DNA from: Candidatus Gastranaerophilales bacterium
Lineage (GTDB): Bacteria; Cyanobacteriota; Vampirovibrionia; Gastranaerophilales; Gastranaerophilaceae
Assembly: GCA_944323535.1 (NCBI GenBank)
Contig: CALUSW010000004.1
Coordinates: 1-56,424, forward strand
DNA length: 56,424 nucleotides
Direction of reading: 5' to 3'
Part shown: positions 1 through 56,424 of the stretch, piece after piece
Numbering within the stretch: the first letter of the stretch is position 1
Layout: every line of letters starts with the position of its first letter
Notes under the pieces: model-generated
What the model was told of the DNA's origin: nothing
Databases searched by the model: none
The model's input: only the letters and a program-made list of their open reading frames with translations
Made by a program: the position numbers and the translations under genes

Positions 1-7
1 AAATTTA

Positions 8-400
8 TGGAGACGGAGAGATTCGAACTCTCGTCCGGAATGGGATATAAACCTGCATCTACGAGTGTAGGTTTGTTATTTTAGATAATATTACGGCACA
101 GACCTTTCCTTAAATATTATCATAGCAGTTTTAACTGATACGCAGTTTGAAAGCGAAAACTTAGTCCGGCTGCTTTCATTACCGGAGTGCAGCTTGCATA
201 CCTGCGTCATATCAAACGGCAAGCTGGTCTGATATAACGGCTGAACTGCTACTAAGCAGCAAGAGCTCTAACTCTTGAAAAATCAGCTTTTACTACATTG
301 TTTGTAGCGTTTGTTTTAATTTGCTCGTTGATAACTCAGAACAGCGCTGAGACCCGCAGCCTGATTACATCAATCCACCCGTCAAATCCAAAACGTCCCC
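8..400 (-). ncRNA. ssrA: tmRNA (one-piece ssrA)
   Basis: Transfer-messenger RNA, which rescues stalled ribosomes and tags the nascent peptide for proteolysis. On the minus strand the 5' end (GGGGACGTTTTGGATTTGAC, from 400) is the canonical tmRNA start and the 3' end carries a T-arm with GTTCGAATC. The 5' GGGGACG pairs with 3' CGTCTCC to close the acceptor stem. The 3' CCA is not encoded: after the discriminator A (position 8) the sequence reads TAAA. The tag frame runs from GCT at 308 to TAG at 252 and reads ATNNVVKADFSRVRALAA, ending in the usual ALAA degron. The order is not permuted. Identity is certain; the exact ends rest on the acceptor-stem pairing. Confidence 0.97.
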
Positions 401-55813: not shown

Positions 55814-55841
55814 TTTACAAAACGATTTTTTATGCTACACT
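55814..55841 (+). promoter_or_regulatory. promoter of the structured leader
   Basis: TTTACA at 55814-55819, a 16-bp spacer and TACACT at 55836-55841 match a sigma-70-type promoter right after the rplI stop. A transcript would begin near 55848, just before the 17-codon ORF. Confidence 0.55.
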
Positions 55842-55865
55842 GTTACTAACAAAAAGGAATAAATA

Positions 55866-55919
55866 ATGCTGCACATCCAAAATCGACGTTATATTTATAA
55901 AGGAGGCTTTACGATATAA
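55866..55919 (+). CDS. possible 17-codon leader ORF
   Basis: ATG at 55866 follows AAAAAGGAAT and reads MLHIQNRRYIYKGGFTI, stopping at 55917-55919. It spans the 5' half of the structured leader, and the anti-terminator sequence AAAGGAGGCTTT lies in its codons. Ribosome progress could therefore choose between the alternative stems. Tyr occurs twice and Arg twice, but no run of one amino acid points to a specific sensed tRNA. Coding status is uncertain. Confidence 0.3.
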   Translation: MLHIQNRRYIYKGGFTI

Positions 55920-55955
55920 TCGTATCAAATTTTGGTGTGGATAAAATAATCAAAG

Positions 55956-55988
55956 CCTTCTGTATAAATAAATTACAGAAGGTTTTTT
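55956..55988 (+). terminator. leader terminator hairpin
   Basis: CCTTCTGTA and TACAGAAGG form a perfect 9-bp stem with a 9-nt loop, followed by six T residues. Its 5' arm overlaps the sequence complementary to the upstream AGGAGGCTTT. Confidence 0.85.
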
Positions 55989-56009
55989 AATGTATAAGGA
56001 GAAAGAAAT

Positions 56010-56084
56010 ATGCGACGTAATTTAAAAGAAAATTTAGCAAATGCCCCGTTTGTTAAATTAAGAAATCTTATCTGGGGCTTGTGA
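56010..56084 (+). CDS. 24-codon open frame between leader and final gene
   Basis: ATG at 56010 follows AAGGAGAAAGAAAT and reads MRRNLKENLANAPFVKL and on to a TGA at 56082-56084. GCCCC (56043-56047) and GGGGC (56074-56078), within the ORF, can form a stem. The next gene starts 24 bp later after AAAAAGGGAAAAAA. The good ribosome site supports translation; function is unknown. Confidence 0.4.
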   Translation: MRRNLKENLANAPFVKLRNLIWGL

Positions 56085-56107: not shown

Positions 56108-56424
56108 ATGTCGATACAAGCAATAACAACAAAAATAGTTTCAACATTAGGGAATAAAGAATCTTTAGTGCCCATTATGATAAAAGACGGTGTAGACTCA
56201 GCAAGTCTTACATATAAATCATTTAAAGAAGGCGGCAGTGTTGAAGGAACAGACAGATTTATAGATGAGTTTGGGACACAGGCAATCTGGATAGGCGGTA
56301 TTCCGTTTTATAAAAAACTTATTGATAAAACAGCGTATAAACTTGCAAAAATAAATCCGGAAGTTGATCCGAGAATTATAGCCGATAAAGAATATGCATC
56401 CTGGGCGAAAGAAAATGCAAAAGG
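56108..56424 (+). CDS. unknown protein, truncated at the window end
   Basis: Open frame from ATG at 56108 (AAAAAGGGA upstream), without a stop to the window edge; about 105 residues visible. It reads MSIQAITTKIVSTLGNKES and contains IKDGVDSASLTYKSFKEGG, FIDEFGTQAIWIGGIPFYKKL and EVDPRIIADKEYASWAKENAK. No signal peptide, no clear membrane segment and no family recognised. It is the first long gene downstream of the structured leader and 24-codon ORF, so it is probably what they regulate. Longer sequence is needed to name it. Confidence 0.6.
   Translation, partial: MSIQAITTKIVSTLGNKESLVPIMIKDGVDSASLTYKSFKEGGSVEGTDRFIDEFGTQAIWIGGIPFYKKLIDKTAYKLAKINPEVDPRIIADKEYASWAKENAK

Follow-up and report, generated by a model that had tools for sequence, protein, structure and literature searches.

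A putative ribosome-mediated attenuator with two upstream reading frames in series before an orphan gene of Gastranaerophilales

Leader reading frames in which arginine codons act as the signal have been described in Salmonella. In the his leader, de-attenuation was highest with Arg-Arg pairs that include CGA (PMC4046918), and two Arg codons of the speF leader frame orf34 (SpeFL) sense arginine (PMC6386406). Four consecutive CGA codons were, however, translated without hindrance in B. subtilis (PMC10454642), which counts against a stall at CGA. The locus described here, upstream of a gene we call DN, resembles speF in that a pair of adjacent Arg codons lies close to the 5' end of a leader ORF; in speF it is the ribosome position that selects the mRNA fold, and the gene is more active at low arginine. 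Unlike speF, which depends on Rho and RNase G and has one uORF, it has a predicted intrinsic terminator and two uORFs. Rare and frequent Arg codons both work in speF, whereas CGA-CGN is kept here, and the downstream genes are unrelated. ORF34 belongs to the DUF2618 family; a Pfam search at E<=10 with four Arg-type leader peptides from our loci gave no match, DUF2618 included.

The enteric his/trp-type attenuators (Rfam His_leader and others) share with this locus tandem sensor codons, an intrinsic terminator and an exclusive antiterminator, and their His runs have a counterpart in the leader of the paralog DN2. They control biosynthesis, whereas the gene here encodes an orphan membrane protein and the leader has no Rfam match at threshold. 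In addition, the locus has a second uORF after the terminator, the sensor consists of two codons, CGA-CGN, and the host belongs to Gastranaerophilales. We found no earlier description of leader-peptide control in this order of gut bacteria in the open literature searched, which is not proof of absence. The preliminary description had left a choice between attenuator and riboswitch for the element at 55814-55988. Comparison across the order identifies it as a predicted leader-peptide transcription attenuator and not a riboswitch. It most likely senses arginine and would be a variant form of ribosome-mediated attenuation in which one uORF follows another. We put the probability of the overall explanation, in which a stall at Arg codons would free an antiterminator and switch DN on, at roughly 70%.

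The leader locus and its conservation

The window, which is the whole stretch of 56,424 nucleotides analysed, is contig C4 of a Gastranaerophilales genome of 1.9 Mb (G000). A tmRNA gene (Rfam RF00023, 98 bits) occupies its left end (5-400, minus strand). Towards the right end, rplI is followed by an intergenic region of about 300 bases containing a promoter-like site, ORF1, a stem, an intrinsic terminator, ORF2 and the start of DN. A check of the sequence located every piece named in the preliminary description, including the 11-bp stem, in its described place. The features are as follows.

55814-55841, plus strand: promoter-like site, TTTACA and TACACT separated by 16 nt, with TG before the latter (score 9/12)
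55855-55858, plus strand: Shine-Dalgarno sequence AGGA of ORF1 (from sequence; SD-like sequence in 50/69 loci)
55866-55919, plus strand: ORF1, first leader peptide MLHIQNRRYIYKGGFTI and stop, 17 codons (frame conservation)
55872-55883, plus strand: 5' arm of helix P1, CACATCCAAAAT (swapped-partner duplex test)
55884-55889, plus strand: tandem Arg codons CGA CGT in ORF1, the proposed sensor (CGACG invariant in the genus)
55901-55910, plus strand: 5' arm of helix P2, the antiterminator strand AGGAGGCTTT, within ORF1 (pairing, and covariation outside the genus)
55910-55924, plus strand: putative hairpin P3, TACGAT-ATA-ATCGTA, containing the ORF1 stop (from the genus alignment)
55929-55939, plus strand: 3' arm of P1, ATTTTGGTGTG, 3' of the ORF1 stop (fold and swapped-partner test)
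55952-55988, plus strand: intrinsic terminator, whose 5' arm AAAGCCTTCT (55952-55961) is also the 3' arm of P2 (fold, double changes and swapped-partner test)
55997-56002, plus strand: Shine-Dalgarno sequence AAGGAG of ORF2 (from sequence)
56010-56084, plus strand: ORF2, second leader peptide MRRNLKENLANAPFVKLRNLIWGL and stop, 24 codons (uORF conservation at DN loci)
56013-56018, plus strand: tandem Arg codons CGA CGT in ORF2 (87 CGA-CGN pairs among 98 distinct ORF2s)
56064-56084, plus strand: conserved ORF2 C-terminus NLIWGL and stop (free synonymous change)
56108-56424, plus strand: 5' part of the controlled gene DN, an orphan helical protein of about 445 aa (continues on contig C28 of the same genome)

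A DNA search recovered the region in 30 of 35 congeneric genomes, with one full-length copy each and E-values from 1e-41 to 1e-6, and its presence in some 30 genomes at those values places it far beyond chance. At every genus locus the element lies 5' of DN, mostly after rplI; for three loci rplI fell outside the retrieved stretch. Searching with a covariance model built on the leader turned up weaker copies outside the genus, and the best of these precede DN homologues of 36-52% identity without rplI nearby. DN homologues were gathered from 79 loci. In most loci of the order some 200 bases separate the terminator from the end of ORF2, and an ORF1 containing CGACG precedes the terminator. By this comparison the predicted device belongs to the downstream DN and not to rplI, and is conserved across families of Gastranaerophilales.

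The promoter of the preliminary description fared less evenly. The -35-like TTTACA (55814-55819) and the -10-like TACACT (55836-55841), with an extended -10 TG, were found where they had been placed, but a score of 9/12 is not significant by itself, as 13 such sites were found against a chance expectation of 11.2. The site gains weight only because comparable TTTACA / TG-TAAAAT-like sites recur 5' of ORF1 in relatives.

Two reading frames with an avoided codon pair

The reality of the 17-codon ORF was assessed at the 69 loci carrying CGACG before a terminator. The frame that reads CGA-CGN is open and has a start in 68 of them, while the other two frames do so in 6 and 8; the ORF of the preliminary description is thus genuine, and ORF1 is predicted to be a conserved leader peptide, a short leader ORF with conserved sensor codons. 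CGA makes up 4-5% of Arg codons (4.6% in 690 neighbouring ORFs), and CGA-CGN encodes just one of the 292 Arg-Arg dipeptides in those 690 ORFs, yet it encodes RR in both ORF1 and ORF2. The tRNA-Arg genes found in the genome have the anticodons ACG, TCT and CCT only, so that the sole CGN-reading gene found is that with anticodon ACG. Across families the ORF1 peptide MRIRKYQ[KR]RCFYTN is nearly identical; in genera of the g30/g39 type most species have KR[CQ] instead of RR. It is at the codon level that ORF1 and the ORF2 Arg pair are conserved.

TadA editing of the mRNA at UACG was considered as a role for the motif and dropped, because the base preceding CGACG is not fixed (TCCGACG, AATCGACG). 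In several genera (L131, L133, L137, L147-L149 and L164) ORF1 is apparently leaderless, with a TATAAT-like -10 placed 5-7 bases before the ATG, for example TGTATAATAAAAATATG.

The 24-codon ORF that the preliminary description had noted on the way to the downstream gene is present and is, in addition, a second conserved leader peptide, ending in NLxWGL and stop. An in-frame uORF with WG close to the stop was found directly 5' of DN in nearly all of the 79 loci. A single M-N-L-x-W-G-L-stop pattern is present in each of 67 genomes among the 98 of the order, and reversed controls had none (0); DN lies directly downstream in 30/30 of the pattern loci inspected. The regular expression used for ORF2 demanded the NLxWGL motif; a separate search demanding only WG near the stop gave a like result. 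Synonymous change is free up to the stop, which indicates that N-L-x-W-G-L is maintained as a peptide. At loci outside the genus a further helix, P4, forms between the codons that follow CGA-CGN and bases just past the ORF2 stop (-10.77 vs -7.71, sd 0.35, at 39 loci); it is absent from the genus of the window. ORF2 so appears to be a second unit of the same design as ORF1, placed further downstream.

Two further observations concern the surroundings of this frame. In the genus, many ORF2s (56046-56060 in the window, and relatives) contain a hairpin GACAAAT-NCCCC-ATTTGTC, the loop of which could pair with TGGGG of the WG codons; some species are without the entire insert. Between terminator and ORF2, loci L095-L170 keep GTTACAAAA and an AGCAA/AGCAC block.

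The gene DN, its paralogs and the nature of the stall

The window contig ends within DN, the remainder of which is on C28; the two contigs overlap by 77 bases. It matches no Pfam or NCBIfam family. Its predicted model is confident and all-helical (pLDDT 86.5), and fold searches with it were unusable, with a best Foldseek E of 0.14 and a VIA Z of 6.3 to ABC exporter membrane domains, the latter discounted as it is below a meaningful level for helical bundles. A search of the sister order, run without a positive control, found DN in 0 of 53 genomes. In several genera the gene after DN is on the opposite strand. A natural guess is that this orphan membrane protein serves arginine or histidine uptake or the response to their lack.

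There is a second DN family, DN2, and at 28 of its 30 loci a His-rich leader lies 5' of the gene (for example MENRILKLHHHHHHSDLRRAVNW and stop), which provides independent evidence that amino-acid-sensing leaders govern the DN family. Among the DN2 loci (L218-L246), L242 has the leader LKLHHHHHHSDL..., which would probably act as a histidine attenuator. The genome of the window also encodes a DN paralog (L257; G000:C19:7960-8060) with a uORF, MQQMIIYRNQKKIKKLVDLMNMIWGL and stop, that ends 6 bases before the start and is without the Arg pair. Another paralog (G129 C5) is without ORF2, and remote DN-like proteins as well as one close paralog are without uORFs.

The arginine biosynthesis gene argH is absent from the genus of the window and from most DN-bearing lineages. 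DN was found in 80 of 83 argH-less genomes, and a strong DN match in 4 of the 15 that bear argH (Fisher 4e-9, or 0.026 outside the main family, values inflated by common ancestry). Most DN-bearing lineages appear to have lost arginine synthesis. Of the paralogs, DN1 appears tied to arginine and DN2 to histidine.

These data bear on what halts the ribosome. The same attenuator could be worked by a ligand- or drug-induced arrest of the nascent peptide, as in erm, TnaC or SpeFL, rather than by uncharged tRNA-Arg, with QNRR / MRIRKYQKR and NLxWGL-stop as the arrest sequences. The near-identity of MRIRKYQ[KR]RCFYTN across families would fit such a role, as would the C-terminus of ORF2, constrained in amino acids up to the stop and with an invariant Trp near its end as in TnaC-type stop-codon arrest peptides, a likeness in the pattern of conservation. 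However, ORF1 and the ORF2 Arg pair are kept at the level of codons, the His run of the DN2 leader is the signature of tRNA sensing, and no gene of a resistance type lies downstream. We regard peptide arrest as an unlikely substitute for tRNA sensing.

ORF2 could also be a functional microprotein made together with DN, such as a partner subunit, and not a leader at all. Its conservation at the amino-acid level and its constant place directly 5' of DN (30/30 loci examined) are compatible with this, but the extreme CGA-CGN bias and the P4 helix, which covaries outside the genus, both point to a role in cis, and the DN paralog of G129 does without ORF2. A microprotein seems to us improbable, and we retain ORF2 as a second leader peptide.

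Mutually exclusive helices and the proposed mechanism

Folding, a check suggested in the preliminary description, was run on 55848-55992 and gave -35.5 kcal/mol against -18.65 (sd 3.18) for shuffled sequences, that is 5.3 sd better than the shuffles (z -5.3), with 0/200 of them as good. P1 pairs ORF1 codons with the segment directly past the ORF1 stop. P2 can form between AGGAGGCTTT (55901-55910) and the 5' arm of the terminator, AAAGCCTTCT (55952-55961); the 3' arm and T-run of the terminator end at 55988. In the genus alignment the order of conserved blocks is CAAAATCGACG, 12 variable bases, AGGAGGCTTTACG, CGTA..CGATTTTG and AAAGCCTTCT..AGAAGGCTTTTTT, and five terminator pairs have double changes. 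RNAalifold reported the terminator alone on this alignment because the helices are mutually exclusive, and swapped-partner tests were therefore used, in which the duplex energy of an arm with its own partner is compared with that obtained with the partners of other species (5000 permutations in the genus). Cognate P1 arms scored -12.86 vs -10.87 for swapped ones (sd 0.34), with 0/5000 permutations as good, and terminator arms -13.66 vs -12.99 (sd 0.13; 0/5000, p<2e-4). P2 is paired in 97.7% of cells in the genus (30 species) without double changes; it hardly varies there, which accounts for the lack of covariation within the genus. At 26 loci outside it, P1 reached z -7.6 and P2 z -6.8, while 16 loci of the g30/g39 type gave z -3.2 for P2 and no significant value for P1. 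Maintenance of P1, the terminator and, order-wide, P2 is thus supported by covariation.

The alternative pairing of the terminator 5' arm with an upstream strand, on which the preliminary description had based its attenuator reading, is borne out by these z values: covarying pairs exist across the order, contrary to the refuting condition set there (no such pairs in homologues), and the antiterminator and terminator are predicted to exclude each other. The 'anti-anti-SD-like' AAAGGAGG of that description did not hold up, since the homologous arm elsewhere in the order is GGCTTGTT, AGAAGTCTTT and others; the resemblance to a Shine-Dalgarno sequence is a coincidence, and a role as such is rejected.

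Jointly, P1 and P2 have the topology of an H-type pseudoknot, which could suggest an RNA that binds a metabolite or protein, be it a riboswitch or a ribosomal-protein leader such as one for L9 autoregulation, given that in the genus the element comes after rplI. At the gathering score, however, Rfam returned no riboswitch, T-box or leader family for the window leader or five related loci, in agreement with the preliminary remark that no riboswitch class was recognised. All conserved bases lie in helices or codons and not in an unpaired aptamer core, and the reading frames are conserved. Elsewhere in the order the element accompanies DN at loci that have no rplI nearby, at odds with an autoregulatory leader of rplI (L9). 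The missing Rfam match and the confinement of conservation to helices and codons leave a riboswitch unsupported, and we judge a binding RNA of either sort very unlikely. At permissive E-values, Rfam gave chance matches only, among them a weak one to His_leader. An ordinary constitutive terminator with chance ORFs, which from its position would end rplI transcripts too, is scarcely credible given that antiterminator strand, ORF frames and codon pair are conserved order-wide before DN even without rplI near.

The preferred reading remains attenuation by a ribosome stalled at Arg codons. When ORF1 is translated to its stop, the ribosome would cover the 5' arm of P2, AAAGCCTTCT would fold into the terminator and transcription would end. 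A ribosome halted at CGA CGN would instead disrupt P1 and leave the P2 5' arm bare; P2 would then form, the terminator would be blocked, and RNA polymerase would continue into ORF2 and DN. The most likely signal is a scarcity of charged tRNA-Arg(ICG), i.e. arginine starvation, to which the slow codon CGA would make the response sensitive. The spacing suits this scheme. From the first base of CGA to the start of the P2 5' arm the distance is 17 bases in the genus and about 22 in other genera, which would leave the arm bare during a stall there; with a ribosome stalled at CGA it is free in 56/56 loci (genus and 'rest' groups). A ribosome at the ORF1 stop overlaps the arm in 32/32 genus loci and 22/24 'rest' loci, while in two loci of the g30/g39 type that were examined the stop lies beyond it, which counts against the scheme in that group. 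We infer from this geometry the arrangement of a classical attenuator. ORF2 would most likely serve as a second gate, on DN translation and in the same direction, and is the least certain step.

A broader proposal can be made tentatively, and we give it somewhat less than an even chance: that two serial leader peptides read one rare codon pair at two levels, transcription through ORF1 and translation through ORF2; that NLxWGL-stop of ORF2 is a previously undescribed stop-codon arrest sequence; and that throughout the order the device marks a family of membrane proteins gated by amino acids, arginine in the case of DN1 and histidine in that of DN2, in bacteria apparently without arginine synthesis.

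With two uORFs in series that use a codon pair avoided elsewhere, the locus offers a natural test of CGA-CGN as a deliberate stall signal in bacteria. The leaders also provide the first functional handle on the conserved orphan DN family and, as its paralogs appear tied to arginine and histidine, make a role of DN in amino-acid acquisition or in the starvation response testable.
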